From positions 1 to 42,136 of the IMG/VR virus record IMGVR_UViG_3300009408_000012: 42,136 nt of DNA; one strand, 5' to 3'. This document shows, in pieces, positions 4,524-35,971 of the stretch. The notes beneath the pieces were generated by a model. The model was given only the letters and a program-made list of their open reading frames with translations. It did not search any database and was not told the DNA's origin. A program made the translations under genes and the position numbers. Position 1 is the stretch's first letter. The number at the start of each line of letters is the position of its first letter. The stretch is from a virus.

Positions 4524-4953
4524 ATTAAGACTATTCATTGATCCAGCCAGCATTTCAAGTGGTTGGGCACTGTTTAGAGATGCTAAATTTCTGACTTCAG
4601 GCACCATAGCGGTCCCCAAGAAGCTGAACGTTTGGGACCGGCTAGCTTTGCTGCGCGTAGAGTACAATGACTTAGGCAGCACGTTGCAGCAGGTAGACGC
4701 CGTGCACTTCGAGAAGATTATGCAGACGCCGCGCGTCCAAAAGGCCGTGCACTGGAGCGTAGGAGTGATTGGCGCAGCGCTGGCACCCTACTCGATGCTG
4801 GTAGACGATTGCATTACTATAAGCAGCTGGCAGGCACACTGCCACTGGAAGGGCATCAAGGAGTGCTGGGAGGCCAGAGGGTACACCAGCGAGGACGAAA
4901 TGGCTGCGGTCGAAATGGGCCGCTGGTTCGTAGATGTAAGGAGGTGTGAGTGA
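4435..4953 (+). CDS. RuvC-like Holliday-junction resolvase family nuclease
   Basis: 172 aa from ATG at 4435 (GGAG at 4422-4425). A later start near the conserved core cannot be excluded, because RuvC proteins usually begin just before it. The core starts LRLFIDPASISSGWALF, matching the first RuvC strand with its catalytic Asp. Acidic residues follow in VHFEKI and the late DEMAAVEMGRW, fitting the RNase H-like fold with its C-terminal acidic helix. Such phage enzymes resolve recombination or replication branches before packaging. It overlaps the preceding gene by 89 nt in another frame and the next by 4 nt. The 30-residue Lys/Arg-rich N-terminus is extra. Confidence 0.75.
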   Translation: MPKTKRAKPLRSQLRRLKTSSQQDSSKGSKLRLFIDPASISSGWALFRDAKFLTSGTIAVPKKLNVWDRLALLRVEYNDLGSTLQQVDAVHFEKIMQTPRVQKAVHWSVGVIGAALAPYSMLVDDCITISSWQAHCHWKGIKECWEARGYTSEDEMAAVEMGRWFVDVRRCE

Positions 4954-5168
4954 TAACTATACTACTGCTAGCTTTGCTAGAATGCAGCAATATGACGGTG
5001 ATCAACGAGCACGGTGACTGGACGCCCAAGGATCAGCTGAACTTTGAGTTCGCACAAAAAGAGTGCCTGCGCCGCTACCCGGACTCGCCCTGCTTGAGGG
5101 TATTTCAGAAGACGGAAGAGGGATACTACCGCACACAATGTTGGAGAAAGAGGAACTATGAATATTAA
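4950..5168 (+). CDS. Small cysteine-containing protein with hydrophobic N-terminus
   Basis: 72 aa, GTG start at 4950 (AAGGAGG at 4938-4944), with GTGA overlap to the RuvC-like gene. Residues 1-11 are hydrophobic (ITILLLALLEC), resembling a short signal or anchor. The remainder has Cys residues at about 38, 48 and 64 and many aromatics, which suggests an exported disulfide-bonded peptide. No family recognised. A similar design (leader, then Cys-containing body) recurs at 7428-7697. Confidence 0.6.
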   Translation: MITILLLALLECSNMTVINEHGDWTPKDQLNFEFAQKECLRRYPDSPCLRVFQKTEEGYYRTQCWRKRNYEY

Positions 5169-5451
5169 AAGTAAAGCACTAAAACAGAGGTTACGGGGCA
5201 TCTCGCTACTGAAGACTGCACTAGAGAAACTGCGCTGGGCCGCTTGGACTCCCCCCGGAGAGGAAGAGATTGCTGGCTACGTGGTTGGACCTGGTCCTTT
5301 TGTAGCCTACGTGTCTGAGTTAGTGGTTGCCGATATGGCTAAAGAGGAAGACTACGCAGTCGCTGACGCTCCTGCGGAAGAGCTTAACGAAGCTATAATG
5401 AGTAGGGATTCTTCTGACGAAGTAAGCAAAGTATCAGGAAAAAAGGAGTAG
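5158..5451 (+). CDS. Hypothetical protein, 97 aa
   Basis: ATG at 5158 overlaps the end of the previous gene by 11 nt; AAAGAGGA lies just upstream. The N-terminal 30 residues are basic and helical. The middle contains a Pro/Gly patch (TPPGEEEIAGYVVGPGP, residues 36-52), and the C-terminus is acidic then Lys-rich. No known domain recognised. Ends 2 nt before the FmdB-like gene, so it is part of the same overlapping operon. Confidence 0.65.
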   Translation: MNIKSKALKQRLRGISLLKTALEKLRWAAWTPPGEEEIAGYVVGPGPFVAYVSELVVADMAKEEDYAVADAPAEELNEAIMSRDSSDEVSKVSGKKE

Positions 5452-5453
5452 AC

Positions 5454-5645
5454 GTGCCAACATACCTAGCTAAATGCACTAAGTGCGGAGAGGAGTTCGA
5501 ATATGGAGCCAAGATTACAGAACGTGATAGCACTCCCTCTTGCCGAAAATGCGGTGAAGAGACTAAGAGAGCGTGGACGGCTGCCAAAGGTGGTTTTATA
5601 CTTAAAGGGACCGGTTGGTATAAACCTGGCGGTTACGGAGGGTGA
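5454..5645 (+). CDS. FmdB-type zinc ribbon protein
   Basis: 63 aa. GTG start at 5454 with AAAAGGAG upstream (5442-5449). It opens MPTYLAKCTKCGEEFE and continues with SCRKCGEE, giving the CxxC-CxxC pairs of the FmdB/CxxC_CxxC_SSSS family. A Gly-rich tail contains FILKGTGWYKPGG, also typical of that family. Such proteins bind zinc; in methylotrophs they were proposed as regulators, but their phage role is not established. A second plausible gene starts inside it in another frame (5503). Confidence 0.85.
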   Translation: MPTYLAKCTKCGEEFEYGAKITERDSTPSCRKCGEETKRAWTAAKGGFILKGTGWYKPGGYGG

Positions 5646-5856
5646 CTTAGATCTGCAAATTATTGGCAATAGAGTATACATGGACGACGAAACGTTTGAC
5701 GCATTATTTGAGATGTCTAAATCAAAGGCTAAAACTAGGCAAGGCAAAAGAGCTGCAGTAAGTAGGATTATTTCTAAAGCTCTGAAGATAATGTTAGAGG
5801 AAGCACTTGCAATTGAGAAACTGGAGGAAGAAAATGGTAAATCGGACGATGTGTGA
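5503..5856 (+). CDS. Hypothetical protein overlapping the FmdB gene
   Basis: 117 aa from ATG at 5503 with AGAGGAG at 5488-5494. The first 48 codons lie inside the FmdB-like gene in another frame. The composition is normal for a soluble protein, with a beta-rich segment (KVVLYLKGPVGINLAVTEG) followed by a basic helical region (residues 74-110). If the long overlap is spurious, the next ATG in frame (5680) would give about 58 aa, but it has no clear binding site. No family recognised. Confidence 0.6.
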   Translation: MEPRLQNVIALPLAENAVKRLRERGRLPKVVLYLKGPVGINLAVTEGDLDLQIIGNRVYMDDETFDALFEMSKSKAKTRQGKRAAVSRIISKALKIMLEEALAIEKLEEENGKSDDV

Positions 5857-6064
5857 GGTATTAGAGGAGATGAGAAAAGCGTGTAAGGTAGGTAATTACT
5901 CCTACATGTTAGGCTTGATTGAGGAAGTCCAGACTATGGGTAACAGAATGGAAGCCTCGCTGTGGGATCAAAAAGCTCTTAAGTGCATTCGAGAAGAAAT
6001 TGAAAAAGCTGAGAAGGAGTTAAAGGATGTCAAAGAAAAAGTCAAAAGCAAACCTTCGGTTTGA
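5834..6064 (+). CDS. Small coiled-coil hypothetical protein
   Basis: 76 aa from ATG at 5834; GGAGG at 5823-5827 selects this start over one 27 nt earlier. It overlaps the preceding gene by 23 nt. Two helices are likely: residues 1-35 (MVNRTMCEVLEEMRKACK and on) and a Lys/Glu coiled coil in residues 45-75. No function recognised. The gene overlaps the following one by 38 nt. Confidence 0.6.
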   Translation: MVNRTMCEVLEEMRKACKVGNYSYMLGLIEEVQTMGNRMEASLWDQKALKCIREEIEKAEKELKDVKEKVKSKPSV

Positions 6065-6281
6065 GGCTAGTGATTTTGCTGGCATCCAGACTGGCTTTGG
6101 ATGTGAGTTTCTAGATGAAGCGGCTGCCACTGAATGTGCTCAAAGAGCTAATGAGCGTTTAACTACAATGCTTATGGAACTACCTAAGCTCCAGTACGGA
6201 TTTATAGGGCCTTACACACAAGATTGGACACAAGGTAAGGTTAGACATTGCCTTAAAAAAGGATTATTAATTATAACATAG
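6027..6281 (+). CDS. Hypothetical protein, 84 aa
   Basis: ATG at 6027 with AAGGAG at 6014-6019. The N-terminus MSKKKSK is the same as that of the next gene (6292). The middle has a Phe/Gly-rich segment and an Ala-rich helix (residues 30-45), and the tail is basic and hydrophobic. No family recognised. The shared start suggests a duplicated translation-initiation segment or simple convergence on Lys codons. Confidence 0.6.
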   Translation: MSKKKSKANLRFEASDFAGIQTGFGCEFLDEAAATECAQRANERLTTMLMELPKLQYGFIGPYTQDWTQGKVRHCLKKGLLIIT

Positions 6282-6291
6282 GAGGGTTTAG

Positions 6292-6999
6292 ATGAGCAAG
6301 AAGAAAAGTAAAACCGTTCTAGTGATTAGCGACCTTCAATACCCTTTTGCGCATAAAGACTCTCTGCCTTTCTTGAGGTCAGTCCATCGCAAGTACAAAT
6401 GTAACGAGGTAGTTTGCATTGGCGACGAAGTCGATATGCATGCAATCTCTGACTGGAGCAGTGACCCTGACGGCATGAGCGCAGGTGATGAGCTTCTTGC
6501 GGCACTCAGAGATATGAAGAAACTTTACAAGGCATTTCCTAAGGTTAGGGTATGCACAAGTAACCACACGGCTAGACCGTTCAGAAGGGCATTTAAGTAT
6601 GGAATTCCTAGAGCATTCTTACGAGACTACGCTGACTTTCTCGAAGCTCCTAAAGGATGGAGTTGGCACAGTCAAATTGAGATCGACGGAGTTAAGTATG
6701 AGCATGGGGAAGGTTTTTCGGGCCGCAACGGGGCAATCAAAGCGGCTGAGCAGAATATGCAGTCAACCGTCATCGGCCATATACATAGCTATGCTGGCAT
6801 TCAGTACAGCGCTAACCCTAGGTTTCTTATTTATGGGTTTAATGTGGGCTGCCTTATTGACAATCATGCCTATGCTTTTGCATATAATAAGAAATTCAAG
6901 CAGAAGCCTATAATTGGGTGTGGAGTAGTTATTAAAGGGACACCTATATTTGAAGCTATGAAGATGGATGGGAGGGGTCGTTGGACGGGAAAACTATAA
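6292..6999 (+). CDS. Calcineurin-like metallophosphoesterase
   Basis: 235 aa, ATG at 6292 after TAGGAGG. Motifs run in order: SDLQYPF (Asp14), GDEVD (Asp45), SNHTARP (Asn91, His92), EHGEG (His138) and GHIHSY (His163, His165). These are the metal ligands of the Mre11/lambda phosphatase fold. The first motif has Gln16 where many members have His, with His21 nearby. Such phage enzymes may act as nucleases or phosphatases; the substrate is not evident here. The last 19 nt overlap the next gene. Confidence 0.88.
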   Translation: MSKKKSKTVLVISDLQYPFAHKDSLPFLRSVHRKYKCNEVVCIGDEVDMHAISDWSSDPDGMSAGDELLAALRDMKKLYKAFPKVRVCTSNHTARPFRRAFKYGIPRAFLRDYADFLEAPKGWSWHSQIEIDGVKYEHGEGFSGRNGAIKAAEQNMQSTVIGHIHSYAGIQYSANPRFLIYGFNVGCLIDNHAYAFAYNKKFKQKPIIGCGVVIKGTPIFEAMKMDGRGRWTGKL

Positions 7000-7208: not shown

Positions 7209-7425
7209 AATCAAGTTCTACGACCATGTCTCTACTAAGGGGGACGAGCACGGTGCTGGTGCTCTTAGCTGCGAGATTTTCGGGCTGCTCTTCAAAGAGG
7301 ACGGGCTGAGTTACTATGTGGCTAGCTGGGTTGGGGACGGCGACTTGAGCAGCAACAACACAGAAGTATTCGTTATTTTGAAGAGCACCGTAATCGGCAT
7401 AGTAGATCTAGAAGAGAAGGGGTAG
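7189..7425 (+). CDS. Hypothetical protein, last gene of the replication block
   Basis: 78 aa from ATG at 7189 (GAAGGA at 7178-7183; an ATG 6 nt upstream is less well placed). The sequence is beta-rich, starting MQNRLVKIKFYDHVSTKGDEHG and ending in short hydrophobic strands, like a small beta-sandwich. Function unknown. The stop (7423-7425) is two bases from the stop of the convergent lysis-region gene, and no terminator-like hairpin lies between them. Confidence 0.65.
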   Translation: MQNRLVKIKFYDHVSTKGDEHGAGALSCEIFGLLFKEDGLSYYVASWVGDGDLSSNNTEVFVILKSTVIGIVDLEEKG

Positions 7426-7427
7426 CG

Positions 7428-7697
7428 CTATTCAGAAGGGTCGTAGCACTGCATCCTAACTTGTCCGCCAGGAAAGAAGTAAAACTCAGACGTGCACGGC
7501 TTCTGCTGCTGCTTTGGGCAGGCTTCAAACAGTTTGTACTTAGCAATCTCTGCCATAAGCCTCTTGTCAGGTATGAAGGGCATGGCTGTCTCGCCTAAAA
7601 CCAAGTAATAGGTTGGGTCTGGGCATTCAAGGTCGTTGGCCCTCCCTAGCGTAGCGAACAAAAATAAACTGACCAATACTGCTAAAATTAATTTCAC
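7428..7697 (-). CDS. Exported cysteine-containing protein near lysis genes
   Basis: 89 aa. A clear Sec-type signal peptide is present: MKL, a hydrophobic core, then LGRAND with cleavage likely after residue 20. The mature part has Cys residues spaced for disulfides (LECPDP, EACPKQ, KPCTSE, MQCYDP). It is the last gene of the minus-strand late block and overlaps the XhlA-like gene by 4 nt. A periplasmic role at lysis is plausible, but no lipobox or spanin signature is present. Confidence 0.65.
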   Translation of the reverse strand: MKLILAVLVSLFLFATLGRANDLECPDPTYYLVLGETAMPFIPDKRLMAEIAKYKLFEACPKQQQKPCTSEFYFFPGGQVRMQCYDPSE

Positions 7698-8089: not shown

Positions 8090-11000
8090 TTATCTCCCTA
8101 AAATTGCTTTCCTAAACTTGCCCGCCACGCTGTTAGGCGCCAACGGCTTAAGGCCGGTCGCGGCCCCAATCTTGTCCTCACTCGTAGCCACCTTGTGCAA
8201 CCGCTTGGCCATCTTAACTGGAGAAGCAAAGCTAGTGATAGGCGCCGTAGGCAATCTGCCCGCGCCCACCTGCTCGAATGCTTCAGCCGCAATTGGCAGC
8301 GCGTCCGCCGTAAATAGCCCGCCCACCGCTTGCAGAGGGTGCGCATTAGGTATCTCGTACCCGGTGAGTATCTTGAAAGCCGTGAGCTGCGCGTAGGGTA
8401 TCATAACCCGCTTGGCGATCTGCTCGACCGACCCTTCTTGCGCGTCCCCCACCAGCCTTGCAAATTGATTTCTTCCCCAAGTAGTGAAAGGTATGAACCG
8501 CCCAATTCCTTGACTCCAAGCACTTGGCGTATTTGCAATAGTGTAGGCAAAGTTAATACGCTGAGAGCGAATAATGCCTGCTAAGTTAGAGGCTGCTTCT
8601 TCACCTTTTTCAGCTAAAACCTTTTTAATCATATCTTTCTGCCCAAACAGCATGCCGTCCAAGGAAGCTAAGCCCTCTCTCTGAAAAGCGTCTTTGCCAG
8701 CCAAGAACCCTATGATGCGATTCTCTTGGTCAAGTCGGTTGAATGGTACCTTCCCAGGAGTGGCAAAGAATGAGGATACCTTTTGAATACCTTTAAGTAC
8801 TGGGTTAGATACTAACACATCTCCAGGTATCTCAGCAAAGCTATCTGGATCTCTTTGCCTCATAAACTTCATAAAGCCTTTAGCAAGATCTCTCATATCC
8901 TTGTTAAGAGCTAGTTTGCGTGCCCGAGCAACTTGAGCAGCGCCTACTTCAACGGTACCTACTAGTTCTGGCTGGAGAAGCTGCTTAACTATTACGGTTG
9001 GAGAGGAAAAGACTGTTCCGTCAAACATGGTCTGCCTAAATACTTTTTCGAACTCACTGACCGCATTGGGGTCGTCAATCAGTTCGGCAATGGCTCTAAT
9101 GTTGTCAGCGTTCTTGTCGACAACTTGGTTACCAAAGACTTTACGCATGTCTACTTTATTTGCAATGCCCAGCCCTGAAGCAAACTGCTCAGCCATCTTC
9201 TCAGCTTCTTTAGTACGACCCATGAATAGTAGTTTGTTAATCTCTGTGCCAGCCTCTCTTATTACTGGGGATAGATGCTTGTGTTTAGTAGCTGCATTTG
9301 AGTACGCTTCAGCTAGTTTAGTGAAGTCGGTCTCAAATAATTCAGGATCAAAATGTGTGGCCTGTCTAGTGTTGGTGTAGCCTGGTTCCACAATAGTTTT
9401 AGAAGTAGACGCCTTAAGTTCTGCTTTAGAAAGACGACCGGACTTCTTAATTAGAGGTATATACCCTTTAAGATACCCTACGGCTTTGCTAAAGCCACCG
9501 GATTCAGCTGCAACATTATCTAGTGTTTGCCGTATAATTCCTAACTGCTGCATCTGGTCAGCGTCAGGAAGGATACCCTTGTAAGTTGGTCGAAAGAAAG
9601 TTTTAGACAGCTGCTCTGCAGCAGGGTTAAACACTACACCTCCAGCTTCGCTTTCTACATACTGCATAACAGTAGTAATCTCATGTCTATCAATACCCAT
9701 CTTTTCTAAGGTTCTAACTGCTTTGCCGAATGTCTCCTGCATAACTATGCGCTCTTCCGAAGCAGCAAAGCGTGCCATAATCAATCTCTGAAAAGACCCA
9801 GTAAGCCGCGTCCCAAACTTCTTGTCAATACTGTTAGCCAACTCAATATTATTTACGATGCCGCCTAATCTAAATGTAAGAGGTGCTTTCTGTCCAGCTA
9901 CTCCAGCCATATTAACGCCAGACTTTTCTAATTGTTCAATAAATATAGCATGTTTCCAGTTGTTGGCCATACTGGGTTCAAGTAGTCCACGCTTAACTAG
10001 GGATCTAGCACTCTTCTCAGCAGTCTCAAAAGCGTTAGCCACTTTCTGAGGGTCTACATTGGCGCCGATTAAAAGTTTAGGGTTTACTCCAAAGGCTCTC
10101 ATAACTTTATTAGACAACTTACCTAAACCTCTGATGGCTGCTCTACTACCCACACCCAAAACTACTCCACCTACTAAACCCTCTGCAGCTGCTCCTGCCA
10201 AACGCTTTTCGTCCAATACTCCTTTGTCTATTTGCTTGAGGCCTTCATCTGCTGTAGTAACAGCACTGCCACCTAGACCAAGGTTAGCAGCAATCTTGCG
10301 GTACTGTGCTCTAGACATGCGGTCACTAACTCTCTTAATAACCACGTCAATTTTATTGCGATCCACTCCACCAAGTTCAGCTCTCTCAGCCACTTCCATT
10401 ATCTTCTTAAACTTCTTCTGCAGTTTGACTGAGGGACCTACAATCTTAGACACACCTTTGAGAAAAGGTGCTGCTGCCTTAAGAATGGCAGCGGCTCCTA
10501 TATCTATAAAGCTAGTAGATAAAGCTATAGCTTCCTCGTTGAAGCCTTTAGGTTTAAAATTCGCTACCTTAGGGTCGAGCGGTAAACCTGCGAGTTGTAA
10601 AGCTTGTCCAGCAAGATTATTGTCAAAACCGTGCCTAGCTGCAGTAACCAAGTCTTCAGGCCTAGATTGTGCTAGTCCTTCTTGAAGTAAGCCAGCTACG
10701 ATGCTAGGCTGCTGAGAAGGAGTGCCTGCCTGCTCTGAAGTTGCAGAGGGTAGTTGCCCCAGGATGCCCTGTGAGGGCTGCTGAGGTGGTTGGCTAAGGG
10801 TAGGGTCCACTTGACCTCTAGCAAGGCCAAGAGGAGGCGCTGAGGGGCCTAAAAAGGCAGCCTCTGGTTGAACTGCGTTGGGTATTGGCCCTGCTGGAGC
10901 TTGCGAACTCCCAAATATATCTGGCCCTACAATACCAGATGTTAGAGAGTCTTCTGGTCGTGAAGCGTTAGGTATTGGGCCAATTGGTTCTTGAGTAGTA

Positions 11001-11917
11001 GCCGGAGGTTGCTGTAAAGCTAAGAACTCCTCGTCTGAAAGGGCATCAATCTGCTCATCTGACATATCACCTAGAGATTTAGTTGCCTGACTTACGTTCT
11101 GCAGGTCTAAGAACTCCTTATCTGAAAGAGAGTCAATCTGCTCGTCCGACATAGTGTTAAGGTCTAACTTAGCAAACTCTGCTTGAGTTATTTGCTGGGG
11201 GGCTTGACTTATTCCAGGTAGTTGAGTCTGTTCTTGTGGAAAATCTTTTAATAGAGATGCTGGATCGACTAGGGCTGGAGCTGCTTGAGTACCTAGCTGC
11301 TGGTGTTGTGCTAGAGGAGTCTTCTGTATCACACGACTTTGATTAAATTCGTCAAAAGATATGAATTTCTCTGCTTTTCTAATTTTTTGGTTAGGCGCTT
11401 CCTGTCCATCAGGTGTAGTAAATCGATCACGCTCTCTCTGCCTTCTAGCTATTAATCCTTTAGACTCTTTTCCCGCGGTACTTTTAATGTCGAAAGACTC
11501 TCTAGATATATTATCTAAATTGCCGTCTTTAAATGCTTGTAAAAGGGCAGGGAACTTCTTGCTTATGCCAAAGTTTAAGTTACCTAAAAGAATCGAGTCA
11601 TTCTGACCTACTGTTCTAGGTTTAGTTTTGGGGAATCGAGTATTAAGATTAGTAGCCCGAGTTTGCAACTCTATTCGAAGCAGTTTATCTGCGTCTTCCT
11701 TTGTAAAAGAACCAATATTAAAAGTTGAGCCTCCTCTAGTAAACTTGCCTGCTTTCTGTTCTGCAGCCGTAAGCACAGAACCGTACCCTATATTATCCTC
11801 GCCGGGGTTTTCTTTATTAGTGGTTACTTTTAGAACCAAACCTTCTTCAGCCTTAGCTTGCTTTACGAGAGACTCTGTAACTCTGAATTGGTTCTTATCT
11901 TTATCCTTCTCCGCCAC
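8090..11917 (-). CDS. Large internal virion protein with N-terminal GH24-type muramidase domain
   Basis: 1275 aa, GTG start at 11917 sharing a base with the previous stop (TAGTG). Residues 15-170 look like phage lysozyme: EEGLVLKV (Glu25 is the likely acid), NIGYG (43-47), LNFGISKKFPAL and KGLIARRQRERDRF. Residues 200-425 are a Gln/Pro-rich linker with duplicated motifs (MSDEQID-S/A-LSD at 256 and 285; GPIPNA at 314 and 344). The rest is a long helical region with amphipathic hydrophobic segments. The design matches ejected podovirus proteins, such as T7 gp16, that drill peptidoglycan and carry DNA inward. No separate endolysin gene was recognised. Confidence 0.85.
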   Translation of the reverse strand: MAEKDKDKNQFRVTESLVKQAKAEEGLVLKVTTNKENPGEDNIGYGSVLTAAEQKAGKFTRGGSTFNIGSFTKEDADKLLRIELQTRATNLNTRFPKTKPRTVGQNDSILLGNLNFGISKKFPALLQAFKDGNLDNISRESFDIKSTAGKESKGLIARRQRERDRFTTPDGQEAPNQKIRKAEKFISFDEFNQSRVIQKTPLAQHQQLGTQAAPALVDPASLLKDFPQEQTQLPGISQAPQQITQAEFAKLDLNTMSDEQIDSLSDKEFLDLQNVSQATKSLGDMSDEQIDALSDEEFLALQQPPATTQEPIGPIPNASRPEDSLTSGIVGPDIFGSSQAPAGPIPNAVQPEAAFLGPSAPPLGLARGQVDPTLSQPPQQPSQGILGQLPSATSEQAGTPSQQPSIVAGLLQEGLAQSRPEDLVTAARHGFDNNLAGQALQLAGLPLDPKVANFKPKGFNEEAIALSTSFIDIGAAAILKAAAPFLKGVSKIVGPSVKLQKKFKKIMEVAERAELGGVDRNKIDVVIKRVSDRMSRAQYRKIAANLGLGGSAVTTADEGLKQIDKGVLDEKRLAGAAAEGLVGGVVLGVGSRAAIRGLGKLSNKVMRAFGVNPKLLIGANVDPQKVANAFETAEKSARSLVKRGLLEPSMANNWKHAIFIEQLEKSGVNMAGVAGQKAPLTFRLGGIVNNIELANSIDKKFGTRLTGSFQRLIMARFAASEERIVMQETFGKAVRTLEKMGIDRHEITTVMQYVESEAGGVVFNPAAEQLSKTFFRPTYKGILPDADQMQQLGIIRQTLDNVAAESGGFSKAVGYLKGYIPLIKKSGRLSKAELKASTSKTIVEPGYTNTRQATHFDPELFETDFTKLAEAYSNAATKHKHLSPVIREAGTEINKLLFMGRTKEAEKMAEQFASGLGIANKVDMRKVFGNQVVDKNADNIRAIAELIDDPNAVSEFEKVFRQTMFDGTVFSSPTVIVKQLLQPELVGTVEVGAAQVARARKLALNKDMRDLAKGFMKFMRQRDPDSFAEIPGDVLVSNPVLKGIQKVSSFFATPGKVPFNRLDQENRIIGFLAGKDAFQREGLASLDGMLFGQKDMIKKVLAEKGEEAASNLAGIIRSQRINFAYTIANTPSAWSQGIGRFIPFTTWGRNQFARLVGDAQEGSVEQIAKRVMIPYAQLTAFKILTGYEIPNAHPLQAVGGLFTADALPIAAEAFEQVGAGRLPTAPITSFASPVKMAKRLHKVATSEDKIGAATGLKPLAPNSVAGKFRKAILGR

Positions 11918-25804: not shown

Positions 25805-25962
25805 TATCTACTCCTCGACTTTTTAGTCTTAAATTTATGTGCAAATACCTTAGGCATCCCTTTAACGGGGTAAACCTTGATATGCTTGTGTGGCCTCTTT
25901 ACGAACATGTACACGTTTACACACGCGCTCGCCACTAGTAAGTATGTTAAAATCTGTTCCAT
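25804..25962 (-). CDS. Small basic membrane peptide, 52 aa
   Basis: ATG at 25962 overlaps the hydroxylase-like gene's stop (TGATG); the stop at 25804-25806 overlaps the next start. Residues 3-20 (QILTYLLVASACVNVYMF) form one membrane span; the rest is strongly basic (HKFKTKKSRSR). Inner-membrane topology with the tail in the cytoplasm is expected. The tight overlap on both sides supports translation. Function unknown; it might accompany the membrane enzyme upstream. Confidence 0.65.
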   Translation of the reverse strand: MEQILTYLLVASACVNVYMFVKRPHKHIKVYPVKGMPKVFAHKFKTKKSRSR

Positions 25963-26390
25963 CACTTCTTAATCTCTCGGTACTCTGTCCCCATAACCTT
26001 GTCCCAGAACGTAAACATCTGCGTGAGGTTCTTATCTAGATGGTCATGGTGTGCTTTATGATACTTTGCATTTCCCAACCAACTTTTAAACGGTTTAAAA
26101 AACATTTTATGAACTCTATTACTCCGCTTATATGTCTTTCTATGCGTCGTAGAGACCTCATAAGTAAATAAGAAGGCTAGCACAAATCCTATAGTGTAGT
26201 AACCACATATAGCTGATACAGTCATAGGTATTAACCATAGTACCATAAATTCCAAGAGGTGGAAATTAGGCTCATATGCTGAGTGATGTACCTTATGTAT
26301 CTCCCACAGAGCTGGTACTTTATGCATGGCTACGTGGCCCCAGTATAAATAAGCATCTAATATTAAAAGTATAAGTAGCGTACTTATCAT
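25962..26390 (-). CDS. Fatty acid hydroxylase / sterol desaturase superfamily membrane protein
   Basis: 142 aa. Di-iron histidine motifs are present in order: HVAMH (His19, His23), HKVHH (His32, His35, His36) and HKAHH (His111, His114, His115). The end FWDKVMGTEY matches the family's W-D-x-x-x-G-T close. Hydrophobic spans lie at 1-17 and 46-80. Known members use O2 to hydroxylate lipid, sphingolipid or carotenoid chains at the membrane. This copy is short for the family (often 200-300 aa) but keeps the motif series. It sits in the fibre region, with start and stop overlaps to its neighbours, so it is expressed with the late genes. The substrate is not evident. Confidence 0.85.
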   Translation of the reverse strand: MISTLLILLILDAYLYWGHVAMHKVPALWEIHKVHHSAYEPNFHLLEFMVLWLIPMTVSAICGYYTIGFVLAFLFTYEVSTTHRKTYKRSNRVHKMFFKPFKSWLGNAKYHKAHHDHLDKNLTQMFTFWDKVMGTEYREIKK

Positions 26391-30589: not shown

Positions 30590-31345
30590 AATCTGCCCGT
30601 CTGCCCGGACTGCCTCACCACTGCCCGTTTTGCGCGGACTTCCTGGGAACTGCCGTTCCTTTGAGCAGGTGACGCTCACGATGTGGGGTTGTTCTAAATT
30701 TTTTGCCAGGCAAGGAATTACACCCTGCGTCCTACGTCGCTTAGACGCATGCTCTAATGCACCGACTTTACGCTGTCACCACTTCTGAGCTACTGGCATA
30801 CTTGGCCAGGCCCGCCGCTCCCCCCTTGGGGCCCTAGGCTGCAAATCTGCGAGAAGTGCTACCTAGGGGCCTAAAACTTTTAGTCTCTCTCCGGCTTTCT
30901 GGTGATCATCCGCACGTATATTGCGTGGATCTCCCGGGAGCCGTAATTACTTTTAAAACTCTTTTTTGGCTGCTCTTCCATCTTTGCTCCTATTGTAGAT
31001 ACAGCTCGGACTATGTGGAATGCTTTAAGGGGGAGCGGGCGGTGTTTCCAAACGCTCTAGCCCTCAAGGTTCTTATGTGGAGCTTGTGGGCTCCCAGGGG
31101 CAAAGCCCCTCCACCTAGCCTCGCTGCTGGCCTTGTCGACTCTGTCCCTCTTTCGAGTTCCACAATTTGAGTCAAATTGTACCGTTAGCTTCAGTAGTAT
31201 TCAGCCGGGGTGCGGTTCAGGCCTTGACTGGTTTTGAGGTGCCAGCTGGCAGGTCTATCATTTCCTCGAACCCCTTGTAGGTGGTGCTTTTCAGCGTTCG
31301 GGCCGGTCTCGTTTCAAGAGTGAGGCGCAAGAACCCAACCTACAT
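30590..31345 (-). ncRNA. Putative large structured non-coding RNA
   Basis: About 760 nt without any credible reading frame on either strand, in a genome where genes otherwise touch or overlap. A consensus promoter (31351-31379, minus) ends right before it. Minus-strand stems include 7-bp ACAATTT/AAATTGT (31162-31180), AGGGGC/GCCCCT with triloop (31096-31110), TGCCAGCTGGCA (31240-31251), CCCTAGG/CCTAGGG (30832-30838 with 30862-30868) and CTGGC/GCCAG (30793-30809). Many purine-rich junctions suit tertiary contacts. The 3' end has repeated GGCAG elements before the AAAGGAGG of the first tiny gene. It resembles in size and style the giant phage RNAs such as GOLLD or ROOL, but class membership was not tested. 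It could instead be a very long leader. Confidence 0.6.
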
Positions 31346-31350
31346 CTACT

Positions 31351-31379
31351 ACTCTATCATGCTTTTGTCGATTTGTCAA
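31351..31379 (-). promoter_or_regulatory. Sigma-70-type promoter for the RNA and late block
   Basis: Minus strand TTGACA (31379-31374), 17-bp spacer, TAGAGT (31356-31351). An A/T-rich tract lies directly upstream (31381-31440), like an UP element. Transcription would start near 31345 and run into the putative structured RNA and then the late genes. Confidence 0.75.
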
Positions 31380-31380
31380 G

Positions 31381-31560
31381 CTTTTTTTTCAATTATTTTG
31401 CATTTTTTTTGCTCTATTTTCTAAGTGGCTGAAATTATAGGTTTTCTCAGTTTGGCGAGTTTTGTATTTTGCTCAATTTTTAGCTGATATGCACTAGAGT
31501 CCCCCATATATATCCTTGGGGGGGCAGGGCATGATTGGTGCTCGCCCCTCCAGGGGTTGG
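31381..31560. other. Gene-free A/T-rich tract and two G/C hairpins
   Basis: 31381-31440 is mostly A/T, with two runs of eight T. Two hairpins follow: CCCCC (31501-31505) with GGGGG (31518-31524), loop about 12 and A/T-rich; and CCCCT (31545-31549) with AGGGG (31552-31556). No credible gene. It separates the sigma-70 promoter from the sigma-54 cluster. An origin or a transcription insulator is possible, but nothing decides. Confidence 0.5.
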
Positions 31561-31571
31561 GGTGCACTGCA

Positions 31572-31588
31572 TTGGCATCATACTTGCA
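31572..31588 (+). promoter_or_regulatory. Near-consensus sigma-54 site, plus strand
   Basis: TTGGCAT-N5-TTGCA with GG and GC separated by exactly 10 nt, one mismatch in the -24 box (T for C). It lies about 180 bp upstream of the perfect plus-strand site and may be a secondary or decoy site. Confidence 0.5.
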
Positions 31589-31590
31589 GT

Positions 31591-31607
31591 AGCACAGCAC
31601 GTGCCAA
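31591..31607 (-). promoter_or_regulatory. Near-consensus sigma-54 site, minus strand
   Basis: Minus strand TTGGCACG-N4-GTGCT; the -24 box is perfect, and the -12 box has G for the first T but keeps GC at 10-nt spacing. It points toward the large RNA and late genes. Confidence 0.45.
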
Positions 31608-31634
31608 GATATACGTAGGTGGAGCAGCGTGCCC

Positions 31635-31652
31635 ATGCAACAATCGTGCCAA
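31635..31652 (-). promoter_or_regulatory. Consensus sigma-54 promoter, minus strand
   Basis: Minus strand TTGGCACG-ATTG-TTGCAT, a full match to the -24/-12 consensus with correct GG-GC spacing. Its start point would be near 31624, directing transcription leftward toward the putative RNA and late block. It diverges from the site at 31750-31767. Confidence 0.75.
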
Positions 31653-31749: not shown

Positions 31750-31767
31750 TTGGCACGCCGGTTGCAT
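31750..31767 (+). promoter_or_regulatory. Consensus sigma-54 promoter for the accessory operon
   Basis: TTGGCACG-CCGG-TTGCAT matches the -24/-12 consensus at every conserved base with 10 nt between GG and GC. Expected start near 31776, 66 nt before the ATG at 31842. Dyads TTGGT-C-ACCAA (31669-31679) and TGCTG-N6-CAGCA (31725-31740) lie upstream and could bind an enhancer protein or IHF-like factor. Confidence 0.8.
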
Positions 31768-31841: not shown

Positions 31842-32144
31842 ATGTCAGTAACAGTAACTACCCAAGAGAACCAAACGCAAGACGCAATGGCCCAAGTAAT
31901 CGCCGAGCTTAAGGCAGAGAATGCTAAGCTTAAGGCTAAGAAGGCTAAGGGGCTCAGCCTAAAGGTTAGCGCCAAGGGCGGGCTCAGCATCTACGGGATG
32001 GGCCGCTTCCCGGTCACACTCTACAAGAGCCAGTGGACGAAGCTACTCGCTGCCACTGAAGAGATCAAGACATTCCTCAAGGACAACGACGCCGAGCTGA
32101 AAGATAAGGGGGACGCGGCCAAAGTTGCAGCTAAGGCAGCTTAG
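31842..32144 (+). CDS. Conserved phage hypothetical protein, 100 aa
   Basis: ATG at 31842 after AGGAGA. An N-terminal helical coiled-coil part (IAELKAENAKLKAKKAKG) is followed by a core LSIYGMGRFPVTLYKSQWTKLL and a Lys/Ala helix tail. I recall a core of this type (GxGRFPVTLY-QW) in many marine and freshwater phage proteins of unknown function, but could not check. It is the first gene of the sigma-54 operon, followed by a strong spacer hairpin. Confidence 0.75.
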   Translation: MSVTVTTQENQTQDAMAQVIAELKAENAKLKAKKAKGLSLKVSAKGGLSIYGMGRFPVTLYKSQWTKLLAATEEIKTFLKDNDAELKDKGDAAKVAAKAA

Positions 32145-32198
32145 TAGGCTTGGCTAGGAGAGAAGTCCTCACTTCTCTCACTGCCTGGACAACTAAGC
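32139..32198 (+). promoter_or_regulatory. Intergenic RNA hairpin 1
   Basis: Outer stem GCTTAGT (32139-32145) with ACTAAGC (32192-32198). Inner perfect 9-bp stem GAGAGAAGT (32158-32166) with ACTTCTCTC (32171-32179), loop CCTC. It sits between the stop of the 100-aa gene and the ribosome binding site of the next, and may be an RNase site or stability element. Confidence 0.7.
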
Positions 32199-32210
32199 AA
32201 GGGAGTAAGT

Positions 32211-32474
32211 ATGGCGGGCACAAGTAATTTATGCAAGAATGGCGTATGTGACCTAAACATGTTTGACTTTTGCCGCTGCAATCCTAAACTAATAGCCAAG
32301 GAGAATACCGTGAGACTTTACGAAATACAGTACCGAGATATGTTAGGAGAAGTCAAGTACTACTACCTAGATGCTACTGATGCAACTGCGGCCAAGTCTC
32401 GCCTCTTGCTGGTTAACGACCACGTCCAAGAGATACTTAGTGCCTCGCCCTGCCTAGTGAGCAGAGAGAGTTAA
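32211..32474 (+). CDS. Hypothetical protein, 87 aa (or 54 aa)
   Basis: ATG at 32211 follows GGGAG. A second start, GTG at 32310, has AAGGAG and would give the last 54 residues only. The upstream extension is Cys-rich (NLCKNGVCDLNMFDFCRCNPK) and could be a zinc or disulfide knuckle. The core VRLYEIQYRDMLGEVKYYYLDATDAT is beta-then-helix. A tandem duplication (GCTGCAGATTG twice, 32482-32505) lies between it and the next gene. Function unknown. Confidence 0.6.
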   Translation: MAGTSNLCKNGVCDLNMFDFCRCNPKLIAKENTVRLYEIQYRDMLGEVKYYYLDATDATAAKSRLLLVNDHVQEILSASPCLVSRES

Positions 32475-32524: not shown

Positions 32525-33016
32525 GTGATTAAATATACTACGCAAGAGTGTAACGAGACGGGGCTACTTAGGATACGGGCGGCGAAAGACTTTGGAAGCA
32601 TTAAGGCGGGCGACCTAGGTGGCTTGATCCAGTTGGATTCTTGTCTAAGCCACTATGGCAACGCTTGGGTCTTTAGCAGCGCTCAGGTCTCTGGCAACGC
32701 TCAGGTCTTTGGCAACGCTTTGGTCTTTGGCGACGCTTGGGTCTTTGGCGACGCTAGGGTCTCTGGCGACGCTAGGGTCTCTGGCTACACTAAGGTCTCT
32801 AAGATATCAGATATATATACACTACAGCTAGAGAGGCACCATGCCACATTTCTGCCCTCAGGTATTAAAATAGGATGTCTCTTTGAATCTTACCAGTACT
32901 GGCTAGACTTAGATTCTCACCCTGACTACATCGACTCAAACGTGTTTGAAAGAGACCACGCCCTACTCACTATAGCCATATACTGCTATTTAGAGAGAAA
33001 CAACTTACCGCTGTAG
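32525..33016 (+). CDS. Hexapeptide/beta-helix repeat protein
   Basis: 163 aa, GTG at 32525 after AGGAGG. Residues about 46-92 are eight six-residue units of the form N/D-A-x-V-F/S-G (NAWVFS, SAQVSG, NAQVFG, NALVFG, DAWVFG, DARVSG and so on). These are encoded by near-identical 18-bp DNA repeats (about 32658-32800) and form a short left-handed beta-helix. Ahead is GSIKAGDLGGLI, often seen before such repeats in phage proteins; behind is an aromatic C-terminal domain. Related repeat proteins are known in bacteria and phages, but with unclear function. Unit number could vary by slippage. Confidence 0.75.
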   Translation: MIKYTTQECNETGLLRIRAAKDFGSIKAGDLGGLIQLDSCLSHYGNAWVFSSAQVSGNAQVFGNALVFGDAWVFGDARVSGDARVSGYTKVSKISDIYTLQLERHHATFLPSGIKIGCLFESYQYWLDLDSHPDYIDSNVFERDHALLTIAIYCYLERNNLPL

Positions 33017-33088
33017 TGGCCGACCAACAGCTTGACAGCAATGCTTAGAGGAGAGCAGCCCACCGCCCTCCCCCTAGCAGTGCAATTA

Positions 33089-33137
33089 AGCACTAAAAGA
33101 GAGCTTAGGTTCTCATTCGCTACCCTAAGGTAGTGCT
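33089..33137 (+). promoter_or_regulatory. Intergenic RNA hairpin 2
   Basis: AGCACTA (33089-33095) pairs with TAGTGCT (33131-33137), and CTTAGG (33104-33109) with CCTAAG (33124-33129). It ends 4 nt before the AGGAG of the next gene. A second, imperfect stem (TGCTTAGAGGAG with CTCCCCCTAGCA, about 33041-33080) lies upstream. Confidence 0.65.
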
Positions 33138-33152
33138 ACCAGGAGACATAAC

Positions 33153-33347
33153 ATGAGCCAGACTGAAATACAATACCGACAGAGTGAGCTAGACTGCTTC
33201 TTAGATAGCTTTGACTCAACCCCTACCGAGGTGGAGACCAGCGACTACGATTGGTTCCCCTTAGCATTGCTAGAGGACGAGCCTGAAGACGGCGGGAACT
33301 GCCCTAGTGAGAGTGACTGTGGGTGCAGAGAGTCTAAAGCTGCTTAG
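33153..33347 (+). CDS. Small acidic protein with Cys-rich tail, 64 aa
   Basis: ATG at 33153 with CAGGAG. Very acidic (for example EDEPEDGGNCPSESDCGCRE), net charge strongly negative, with three Cys near the end. It precedes the amidoligase gene by 72 nt. It might be the substrate peptide of the ligase pair, because amidoligases often modify acidic peptides or proteins; that is speculation from position and composition. No family recognised. Confidence 0.6.
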   Translation: MSQTEIQYRQSELDCFLDSFDSTPTEVETSDYDWFPLALLEDEPEDGGNCPSESDCGCRESKAA

Positions 33348-33396
33348 CCTCGCAGTCTGGGGAGGAAGTTTTACTTCCGCCCCCTTCTGAGCAGCT
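33338..33396 (+). promoter_or_regulatory. Intergenic RNA hairpin 3, before amidoligase
   Basis: AGCTGCT (33338-33344) with AGCAGCT (33390-33396). Inner GGGG (33359-33362) with CCCC (33380-33383), and GGAAGT (33364-33369) with ACTTCC (33373-33378), loop of three T. The 5' arm covers the end of the acidic gene; AAGGAG follows 11 nt later. Confidence 0.7.
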
Positions 33397-33419
33397 AAGC
33401 TCTTAACAAGGAGAAGACT

Positions 33420-34802
33420 ATGCCTCAAAGCACAGTAACCTATATAGATGATGTACCATTATATGATATAAAATACAAAACAGAACCAAAGAAACGCAAG
33501 TTTAAAAAGAAAGGAAAGACTAAAGGTAAGCTTAGAGGTGGGGGAATTCTGAAGGTTAAAGGCCTTAAGATCAAGTTCACCGATGTGACGGGCAAAGTTG
33601 CCACCGACAAGCACAACCTTGCAATCGTGCAAACTGAGAAGCTCATGAAGTCCTACAAGGAGATATCTAAAAATATTATAGAGTATGACCACGGCATAAA
33701 CAGCGTGATTCGGCGTACTCTACAGACTGCTAGAAGTAAAGCATCGTACCGTCCTGAATATCGCAATGTAACCATAAGCTATTTAGGTTTTGTGCGCAAA
33801 GCCACTATCTCTAGGAGTTTAAGTACTAAAAAGGGACTTCTTGAAGAGATTAGGTACACAGTCAAAGATGCTAGAGCAAACGCTAGAAGACCAAATACCA
33901 CAAGAAAAACACACCCAGTGTTTGGCGAGTGGTTTACTACTGGAGGAGTTAGGGACATGCCTGGCTTCTTTAGCAGGGCTTCTATAGGGTTAAAGATGAA
34001 AAGAGTGGAGGCTATTAAAAAGCCTACAACAGATGCTAAGTACGTTGGTGTAGAGCTAGAGTTCTTTAGCCCACTTGGTCGCACTGACATAAAAAAGGAA
34101 ATTGCTGAGCACAGCTTAGAGTATGTGTGCCAAGTAGTTGGGGACGGCTCACTACACGACACTGGAGGGTCACGCTGCCCTGAGTGTAGTAGCTGTGGTG
34201 AGTGTGAAGTAGATGGTGATTGCTGTACTCACTGCTCTAGTTGCGACGAAGGTCAATACAAGAATACTGACCGACTGCGGGGTAATGAGATGCGCATCTT
34301 AGATACTGAAGACAACATTGAGGAGACGGTCAAGAAAGTTACAGCAGCTATTGTAGGCTTTGGCGGTGAGGTTAACGAGCAGTGCGGCCTGCACGTTCAC
34401 TTGGATGTGCGCAACAGAGAGCCAGAGAAGGCCTATACAGCCTTAGCTAATGCTCAGAAAGCGTTATTTAAGACAGTGCCGCAGTCTAGAAGAGATAATG
34501 AGTATTGCGTTATTACTCGAAGTTCTAGGTTAAGCAACGTAGGCTCAGGGCGTTACTACGCTGTCAACCACGAATCTATTACGCAACATGGCTCAATTGA
34601 AGTTAGACTGCACGGAGGCACTCTTGATTCAGAGAAGATAAACAACTGGATTAGCTTACTCAAAATTATAATTGACACTCCGACAGAAGCGAGAGCCAGA
34701 GACAAATGGCCTGACACTGTGTCCGACTTAGCTATTGAATATAATATACCCGAGAGCTTAACCAATTATTATTTGCAGAGAGAACTAGAATTCGCTGCTT
34801 AA
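33420..34802 (+). CDS. Amidoligase (carboxylate-amine ligase fold) with inserted Cys cluster
   Basis: 460 aa. Residues 208-420 are the putative amidoligase domain: GVELEF (210-215), DGS (242-244), NEMRI (289-293), GLHVH (323-327), RYYAVN (378-383) and EVRLHGGTLD (394-403). This is the glutamine-synthetase-like COOH-NH2 ligase fold that joins an amine to a carboxylate using ATP. Between motifs sits a zinc-like cluster of eight Cys (253-275). The 200-residue N-terminus is basic (KKRKFKKKGKTKGK) and unassigned. The next gene is a class II glutamine amidotransferase, which would supply ammonia. Target unknown. Confidence 0.88.
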   Translation: MPQSTVTYIDDVPLYDIKYKTEPKKRKFKKKGKTKGKLRGGGILKVKGLKIKFTDVTGKVATDKHNLAIVQTEKLMKSYKEISKNIIEYDHGINSVIRRTLQTARSKASYRPEYRNVTISYLGFVRKATISRSLSTKKGLLEEIRYTVKDARANARRPNTTRKTHPVFGEWFTTGGVRDMPGFFSRASIGLKMKRVEAIKKPTTDAKYVGVELEFFSPLGRTDIKKEIAEHSLEYVCQVVGDGSLHDTGGSRCPECSSCGECEVDGDCCTHCSSCDEGQYKNTDRLRGNEMRILDTEDNIEETVKKVTAAIVGFGGEVNEQCGLHVHLDVRNREPEKAYTALANAQKALFKTVPQSRRDNEYCVITRSSRLSNVGSGRYYAVNHESITQHGSIEVRLHGGTLDSEKINNWISLLKIIIDTPTEARARDKWPDTVSDLAIEYNIPESLTNYYLQRELEFAA

Positions 34803-34817
34803 AGGAGACTTAAATAT

Positions 34818-35759
34818 ATGTGTAAAATTATGACGATTACAGGAATTAAGCAGCAGGACAAAGGTGACTTACTGCGCTTCTGCATGGAGGCACGTAGGCA
34901 TCTCACCGAGTACGACAAGGATGGTTTTGGCTACGCTGCAACTAATGGAACAGATATGTGGATGGAGCGCTGGTTAAACCCCGACGACTCTTTCATCTAT
35001 CGTAACCCTACCACTAAAAGCGACTTAGCGTTGATAGAAGCCTTTGAGAATAGTATCTCAACGCCTAACATCTACTCTTCTTACGGAGTGGTAGACAAGT
35101 CGCTGAACGATGCTACAACTATTACTCTACATGCTCGCATGAGTACCAACACAGTAAGCTTAGAGAATACCCACCCTTTCATCAAGGATGGTATTTCTTT
35201 AATCCACAACGGAGTGATACGCAATGCTAGCAAGTGGAAGAACACACTATCAACATGTGACAGCGAGGCATTGCTAACTAAATATATTAAAGACTGTGTG
35301 CAGTATGACCCTAGCCTAATTAAAGGCCTGTTTGAGGCAATGAATGGATACTTTGCAGTTAGCATGTTAGTACCATCTGACGACGGCTATGTCTTAGATG
35401 TATTCAAGTGCGATCAAGCTCAACTCTACTTTGCTAGAGTGCCTGAGCTAGGTGATGCTAAGGTGTGGGTAACTGACACTCAACACTTGTTAGAAGTATG
35501 TGAAAAGCTTGGATGGAGTATTCCTAAACTCTTCAGCTTTACAGAGCACACTATCGTACGGTGCGACACAGTAACCGGCGTGCCTATCTCTGTAGATAGC
35601 TTCCAAGATGACACGTTCTACTCTGGATATGACTACGGCACAGGAGAGTACAACGACGAGTATATGTATGAGGAAGGTTATTTGAGTAAAGCCGACAAAG
35701 CAGCAGAGAGGCGAGCTAAGATTGGCAGCCATATAACCAACTATCACAGAACTAGATAA
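34818..35759 (+). CDS. Class II glutamine amidotransferase
   Basis: 313 aa, beginning Met-Cys so that Cys2 becomes the N-terminal nucleophile after Met removal. Conserved pieces: TLHARMST (His105, Arg107), ENTHPF (116-121), HNG (130-132) and DSEALL (148-153), all of the Ntn-hydrolase glutaminase fold that releases ammonia from glutamine. The C-terminal 60 residues are acidic and Tyr-rich (GYDYGTGEYNDEYMYEE) with a basic end. It starts 15 nt after the amidoligase with an AAAGGAG site, so the two probably work as ligase and ammonia donor. Confidence 0.9.
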   Translation: MCKIMTITGIKQQDKGDLLRFCMEARRHLTEYDKDGFGYAATNGTDMWMERWLNPDDSFIYRNPTTKSDLALIEAFENSISTPNIYSSYGVVDKSLNDATTITLHARMSTNTVSLENTHPFIKDGISLIHNGVIRNASKWKNTLSTCDSEALLTKYIKDCVQYDPSLIKGLFEAMNGYFAVSMLVPSDDGYVLDVFKCDQAQLYFARVPELGDAKVWVTDTQHLLEVCEKLGWSIPKLFSFTEHTIVRCDTVTGVPISVDSFQDDTFYSGYDYGTGEYNDEYMYEEGYLSKADKAAERRAKIGSHITNYHRTR

Positions 35760-35771
35760 TAGAGTTAGTGT

Positions 35772-35807
35772 TTAGCTTGGCTGCCCACCTGGGGGCGGCC
35801 TTGCTAA
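35772..35807 (+). promoter_or_regulatory. Intergenic RNA hairpin 4
   Basis: TTAGC (35772-35776) with GCTAA (35803-35807), and GGCTGCCC (35779-35786) with GGGCGGCC (35793-35800, one G-T pair). It lies after the amidotransferase stop and just before AAGGAG of the next gene, as in the three upstream spacers. Confidence 0.65.
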
Positions 35808-35827
35808 CCTTTAACTAAGGAGACGTA

Positions 35828-35971
35828 GTGGTAAAAGATAGAAATGGGCTGCCCGTAGAGCCTAAAATAACTAAAGATGATGCAGCTAGTAGGCTAACGG
35901 ACATAAAGAATATTCTGGAAGACTTGGCTATAGCAGTTGACGACTTGCTAGAGGACTTGGAGGAAGTGTGA
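35828..35971 (+). CDS. Small acidic helical protein, 47 aa
   Basis: GTG at 35828 after AAGGAG (35817-35822). The second half is an acidic helix (NILEDLAIAVDDLLEDLEEV) with regular Leu spacing, likely a coiled coil or interaction helix. The stop overlaps the next gene's GTG start (GTGTGA). No family recognised. Confidence 0.55.
   Translation: MVKDRNGLPVEPKITKDDAASRLTDIKNILEDLAIAVDDLLEDLEEV

Follow-up and report, generated by a model that had tools for sequence, protein, structure and literature searches.

A predicted amidoligase–glutaminase pair and a divergent sigma-54-type promoter hub in the genome record of an uncultured bacterial virus

What would a ligase and a glutaminase encoded side by side in a bacterial virus make, and what signal would switch them on? 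The question is raised by IMGVR_UViG_3300009408_000012, a record from an uncultured bacterial virus, which was analyzed over its whole length of 42,136 bases (the window). On its plus strand, a 460-amino-acid (aa) Amidoligase_2 ligase (33420..34802) is followed after only 15 nucleotides (nt) by a 313-aa class II glutaminase-like protein of the N-terminal nucleophile (Ntn) amidotransferase type (34818..35759), which puts ligase and glutamine amidotransferase (GATase) in one operon. Directly before them lies an open reading frame (ORF) for a 64-aa acidic protein with four Cys and no detectable homologue (33153..33347, plus strand). An earlier reading made from the sequence only had placed three plus-strand ORFs at these positions, where all three indeed exist, each preceded by an AGGAG/GGAG Shine-Dalgarno-like sequence. 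The founding prediction for amidoligase/glutaminase systems is reportedly that of Iyer et al. in 2009. By its motifs and its relatives, the pair presents itself as a further representative of a known but biochemically uncharacterized phage kind, and by analogy it probably carries out glutamine-dependent amidation.

The ligase matches PF12224 (Amidoligase_2) at E 2.2e-14 (54.3 bits against a curated cut-off of 22) and a PHROG amidoligase family at E 6e-16. Motif and composition checks confirmed all the features first read from the letters, namely the GVELEF, GLHVH, and RYYAVN motifs, an 8-Cys insert, and a basic N-terminus of 200 aa. Loss of motif residues in relatives had been named beforehand as a point that could tell against the assignment; they are kept. 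D242, H325, H327, R357, N383, E394, and R396 are invariant in 68 of 68 aligned ligases, the window's included, and G210, E212, E214, S244, and E290, with the GxExE motif among them, are conserved in at least 90% of the 68 and are all present in the window protein. A structure model is confident over about residues 205–460 (predicted local distance difference test [pLDDT] mostly >85) outside the Cys insert, and the best solved fold match to residues 203–460 is glutamine synthetase (Z 14.2, 200 residues, 3.4 Å), with YbdK-type carboxylate-amine ligases at Z 13.4–13.7 over about 200 aligned residues. The domain thus has the fold of the glutamine synthetase/YbdK superfamily (Z 13.4–14.2), but differs from its members in size and is only ~9%–16% identical to them.

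The protein encoded downstream starts with MCKI, its Cys directly following the initiator Met. C2 is invariant in 12 of 12 aligned glutaminases, including that of the window, as are M1, H105, R107, T110, N117, H119, P120, H130, N131, G132, D148, and S149, and the glutamine-binding and oxyanion motifs (R107, H130-N131-G132, and D148) are intact in all 12. A profile built from these sequences finds GlmS in the Protein Data Bank (PDB) at E 3e-23, together with PurF, and gives a weak match (E ~1e-4) to EgtC, a class II amidohydrolase. A tblastn search with the glutaminase against phages found nothing, and the protein is therefore highly divergent; a single-protein scan of viral contigs likewise found no relatives. 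By these motifs it is best described as a divergent class II (GlmS/PurF-type) glutaminase-like protein. It has in common with the GlmS and PurF glutaminase domains the N-terminal Cys and the R-x-x-T, HP, HNG, and DS motifs, but it stands alone without a fused synthase domain, is very divergent, and scores below the Pfam cut-off.

How often the two enzymes keep company was assessed in a set of 100 distinct ligase loci drawn from 13 phage records, 80 viral contigs (one of them via its longer copy), and seven genome contigs, which form 57 clusters at 60% identity; neither copies of the window nor the duplicate loci L015 and L096 are among the 100. The viral contigs are 80 of 282 viral ligase relatives and the phage records 13 of 39, and the frequencies describe this sample. 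A glutaminase homologue is found within the fetched stretch in 19 of the 100 loci (12 of 57 clusters) and directly downstream of the ligase (<150 nt) in eight loci (six clusters). These similar pairs support the proposal that the window holds the sort of amidoligase/class II glutaminase partnership that comparative genomics had predicted. Homologues of gamma-glutamyl cyclotransferase are present in 27 of the 57 clusters and neither partner in 23, and one viral locus (L031) has two amidoligase genes (4641-5855 and 8373-10052). Among known phages, Arthrobacter phages Waltz and Ottawa encode an amidoligase (PF12224) and a class II GATase (PF13522) directly adjacent and in the same order as here. 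In the excerpts available of their descriptions, the LUZ24-like phage UFV-P2 is listed with an amidoligase and a class II GATase in its gene table (PMC3890496), and phage tf, also LUZ24-like, carries both enzyme families (PMC3517423). In several known phage modules the two enzymes are joined by a cyclotransferase, ATP-grasp enzyme, or COOH-NH2 ligase, but a profile search of window ORFs of at least 40 aa detected no homologue of any of the three, and the pair is therefore not filed under the phiEco32/LUZ24-type multi-gene modules. Modules that combine amidoligase and glutaminase are widespread among phages and still await an explanation, and a divergent version of just two genes, lacking the additional enzymes usually seen, offers a compact biochemical test case.

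Within this kind, the window ligase appears as a variant, set apart by the 8-Cys insert and the long basic N-terminus, neither of which is found in the ligases aligned from other phage modules. The N-terminal 200 residues (33420..34019, plus strand) have a pI of 10.4, with 47 K/R against 17 D/E, and are mostly of low confidence in the model. The insert (residues 253–275; 34176..34244, plus strand) sits in the catalytic domain between the conserved stretches around D242/S244 and E290, is modelled at pLDDT near 55, and is absent from the 100 other loci; the densest 45-residue stretch holds nine Cys in the window ligase (one outside the insert) compared to a maximum of four in those loci. No homologue of the insert was found: close matches fall in neighboring ligase residues, and the one weak match over the insert itself is to an annotated membrane protein. 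It may bind metal. Phage records contain no close relative of the ligase (best matches <36% identical over part of the protein), and single-protein scans of viral contigs and genome contigs found no relatives. The sole close relative among the loci examined lies on contig IMGVR_UViG_3300009155_000791 (L015/L095), whose ligase is 33% identical over residues 181–409 and has a similar long N-terminus, a layout common to these two only, but no Cys insert. Its operon is headed by a 45% identical homologue of the window gene at 31842-32144.

In the mechanism that we favor, the phage accessory module would spend ATP and glutamine on the formation of amide bonds. The glutaminase, with Cys2 as its nucleophile after removal of the Met, would release ammonia from glutamine; the glutamine synthetase-like ligase would activate a substrate carboxylate as an acyl phosphate, and attack by ammonia, which may pass from one enzyme to the other, or by an amine would yield the amidated product. 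Several observations weigh against this scheme. A search by sequence for a solved structure of an Amidoligase_2 relative returned none and no biochemical study came to light, which leaves the ligase reaction to be argued by analogy. The glutaminase matches GATase_6 (PF13522) at E 2.7e-5, its 24.6 bits lying below the curated cut-off of 27, and it is therefore called class II glutaminase-like by its motifs rather than a curated family member; as a single sequence it matches GlmS in the PDB weakly (E 0.4), and its structure model, on which the Ntn-hydrolase fold could have been judged, reached a pLDDT of 35 only and was discarded. In addition, 45 of the 57 ligase clusters have no glutaminase in the fetched stretch, from which it follows that the ligase need not draw ammonia from one, and the L015/L095 contig ends inside its ligase and therefore cannot show glutaminase pairing. 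As to the substrate, the sequence-only reading suggested that host or virion molecules may be modified; here, carboxylates of the host envelope are a tentative first guess, followed by a small metabolite and then a phage protein.

Alternatively, the ligase could join an amino acid or peptide as a tag to a protein or small molecule, with the glutaminase in a role of its own, such as that of a gamma-glutamyl hydrolase trimming or recycling the product. The relatives sharing the glutamine synthetase fold do include amino-acid-joining ligases (plant glutamate-cysteine ligase, Z 12.8), the cyclotransferase so frequent among the ligase clusters acts on gamma-glutamyl compounds, and the weak match to EgtC points the same way. 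Yet the window has no homologue of the cyclotransferase, ATP-grasp, or COOH-NH2 ligase genes, and it is GlmS and PurF, far more than EgtC, that the glutaminase profile resembles. We regard tagging as a minority possibility and glutamine-dependent amidation as the better account.

The most surprising part of the locus is the promoter hub from which the pair would be expressed, its sigma-54 type being unusual in a virus. Promoters for sigma-54 (RpoN) follow the consensus TGGCAC-N5-TTGCW, with GG-N10-GC at its core, and their transcription requires an activator that uses ATP. The window contains two perfect TGGCACG-N4-TTGCA sites, placed back to back and separated by 99 bases, and the rest of the record has none (2 observed, 0.015 expected). 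One, TGGCACGATTGTTGCA (31636..31651, minus strand), reads leftward toward the structural operon; the other, TGGCACGCCGGTTGCA (31751..31766, plus strand), faces right, toward gene 31842 and, beyond it, the pair. A third site with one mismatch, TGGCACGTGCTGTGCT (31591..31606, minus strand), also reads leftward. A search that held GG/GC constant and tolerated one mismatch found three sites in the whole 42-kb record, every one of them inside the 662-base divergent gap, against 0.023 expected there, a count reached by none of 2,000 simulated sequences. In the L015/L095 contig, the stretch that separates the leftward genes from the first rightward one contains four sites (0.0115 expected; none of 2,000 simulated sequences reached four) as well as a leftward 176-aa ORF; the hub is at 7276-7561, and a fifth site lies upstream of the ligase region. 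Scans of the window for sigma-70 promoters and terminators gave about as many sites as in shuffles. The proposal that the pair heads a sigma-54-type operon thus holds for the promoter motif, a strong one, and fails for the position, as the rightward site stands 75 nt before gene 31842 and ~1.65 kb before the ligase, which is the fifth ORF after it. A general link between the ligase and this promoter type was considered and rejected: exact TGGCAC-N5-TTGCW sites occur in only two of the 100 ligase loci (L095 and L102). Between the leftward sites and the leftward genes lies ~1 kb (30600-31630) in which no convincing ORF was read and no Rfam match found.

Viral contigs were scanned for two perfect outward-facing sigma-54-type sites 85–115 bases apart. 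Twelve further contigs (L104–L115) have such pairs, compared to none when one extra base was placed inside each site; as L112, L113, and L115 have one hub in common, they represent ~10 lineages. This selection guarantees two sites per contig, and the evidence lies in the spacing control and in the extra sites that many contigs hold (perfect sites number up to ten within ~510 bases), clustered in one hub per record. The reversed pattern gives no match in any of the 14 hub records (the window, L095, and the 12 contigs), and among 44 sites the spacer bases vary, with a T in the flank and C/T before TTGC favored. In the window, in L095, and in eight further lineages (L105–L111 and L113), a gene that matches a terminase or portal profile is oriented away from the hub, with other ORFs intervening in L109 and L110. 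In L104, replication genes (helicase and polymerase) read away from it, and in L114 the genes searched in the fetched stretch included some of replication type and gave no match to a terminase or portal. None of the 12 contigs has a PF12224 match. L126, a hub-bearing virus record, encodes a homologue of a CobT-like cobaltochelatase subunit (4581-6536, plus strand).

These arrangements suggest a model that we put forward tentatively, as somewhat short of probable: a set of phages, the window's among them, would have their packaging and structural operons and their divergent accessory operons transcribed from back-to-back promoters for the host's sigma-54; with no activator of their own, they would leave the gating to a host enhancer-binding protein. 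In the window the leftward sites face the packaging and structural genes, and both units would fire at the time when the host protein is active. Real use of the hub by sigma-54 is somewhat likelier than this full model. It has motif evidence only in its favor, and no sigma-54 activator domain was found in the 14 hub records with a profile that detects it in all 14 control genomes; both points count against such use. If the gating model holds, virion production and a glutamine-burning amidation would be gated by a host signal such as nitrogen or glutamine status, stress, or motility, and the hub would provide a testable link from host stress or nitrogen signalling to phage late gene expression. 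The window copy of the pair is distinguished, besides its domain additions, by its place in a sigma-54-type hub that it shares with the late genes. A literature search of partial coverage listed no paper that seemed to describe phage structural genes driven by sigma-54 promoters. A parallel is provided by phages of Alphaproteobacteria, which, in the excerpt available of PMC9437464, carry sites for the host regulator CtrA before their own genes. The hubs likewise place sites of a host global regulator before phage genes, but that regulator is here sigma-54, known from motifs alone, and the sites form back-to-back hubs beside packaging genes.

This promoter type also bears on a second alternative, that the pair is an auxiliary metabolic module feeding host nitrogen or amino-acid metabolism and switched by nitrogen status. 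Sigma-54 often serves nitrogen genes, which speaks for such a role. So do two accounts, each available in part: Phage-ZRK32 has the pair, with a role in nitrogen metabolism proposed (PMC10945688), and the OM43 phages carry it among their listed auxiliary metabolic genes, with cell-wall modification against superinfection suggested (PMC10580990). Against this, no metabolite product is known, and the hubs in 12 ligase-free records show that promoters of this type are not confined to nitrogen enzymes. We consider a metabolic module unlikely.

Slightly less likely still is that the sigma-54-like motifs are due to chance or to some other repeat element, with an ordinary promoter driving the operon. 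The missing activator gene would fit, and in some contigs the sites form tandem arrays that are possibly repeats, but site counts far above shuffles, the loss of all 12 contigs on adding a base, the variable spacers with their favored flanking bases, and the empty reversed-pattern control speak against this reading.

The acidic ORF before the ligase is, as the sequence-only reading had it, directly adjacent. It is probably a coding gene, because its codon score (+0.164 per codon) exceeds those of the shifted frames (−0.36 and −0.76) and of the reverse strand (−0.46). Its product (pI 4.05, 17 D/E, 3 K/R, and 4 Cys) matches no Pfam or PHROG family and has no homologue among the fetched ligase loci or in 50,697 phage records, where three E 2 matches are short stretches in a halovirus restriction enzyme. 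An ORF of 40–90 aa with pI <4.3 ending at most 300 nt upstream accompanies two of 93 ligase ORFs (the window and L034), the 93 being those that start at least 400 nt into their locus, with L015 and L095 counted apart. L015 joins them by eye, its ligase ORF being called from an upstream GTG and thus missed by the script; there, a 47-aa acidic Cys-containing ORF (pI 4.05) has a stop codon that overlaps the ligase start. That the 64-aa peptide is a dedicated substrate or carrier modified by the ligase is nevertheless very unlikely, for all its coding signal, its position, and the counterpart in L015/L095: the two peptides share no similarity (phmmer, E up to 10), a zinc-ribbon appearance (CPCC...CGNC) is seen in the L015 peptide but not in that of the window, no phage homologue exists in the records searched, and such ORFs are as rare as the above counts indicate. 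The sequence-only reading had expected a substrate gene to travel with the pair; this one generally does not, and by that reading's own measure the idea is refuted or at best open.

Three plus-strand ORFs separate the rightward site from the acidic gene. The first gene of the operon (31842..32144) encodes 100 aa without a PHROG match, the second is a small ORF of 87 aa (32211..32474), and the third (32525..33016) encodes a 163-aa repeat protein that matches PHROGs of unknown function. The repeats of this last protein are V-G-N/D-A-x-V-F/S-G units, and its DNA is similar to that in Streptococcus, Ruminococcus, and Curvibacter phage records. Gaps of the operon (32140-32213, 33012-33152, 33345-33419, and 35758-35830) contain stable hairpins with z from −1.9 to −3.5 and without T runs.

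Elsewhere in the window, profile matches place genes for the terminase large subunit, the portal, and the major head protein on the minus strand, and the plus strand has genes for a DnaB-type helicase and a DNA polymerase of family A; a metallophosphoesterase gene is also present. Among the matches listed, no known portal exceeds about 25% identity to that of the window, and a scan for relatives with the terminase found none. Searches of the window for tRNAs and Rfam families gave no match. The structural operon includes a fatty acid hydroxylase-superfamily protein (25962-26390, minus strand; PF04116, E 1e-17), and a 1,275-aa protein (8090-11917, minus strand) has a phage lysozyme domain at its N-terminus.

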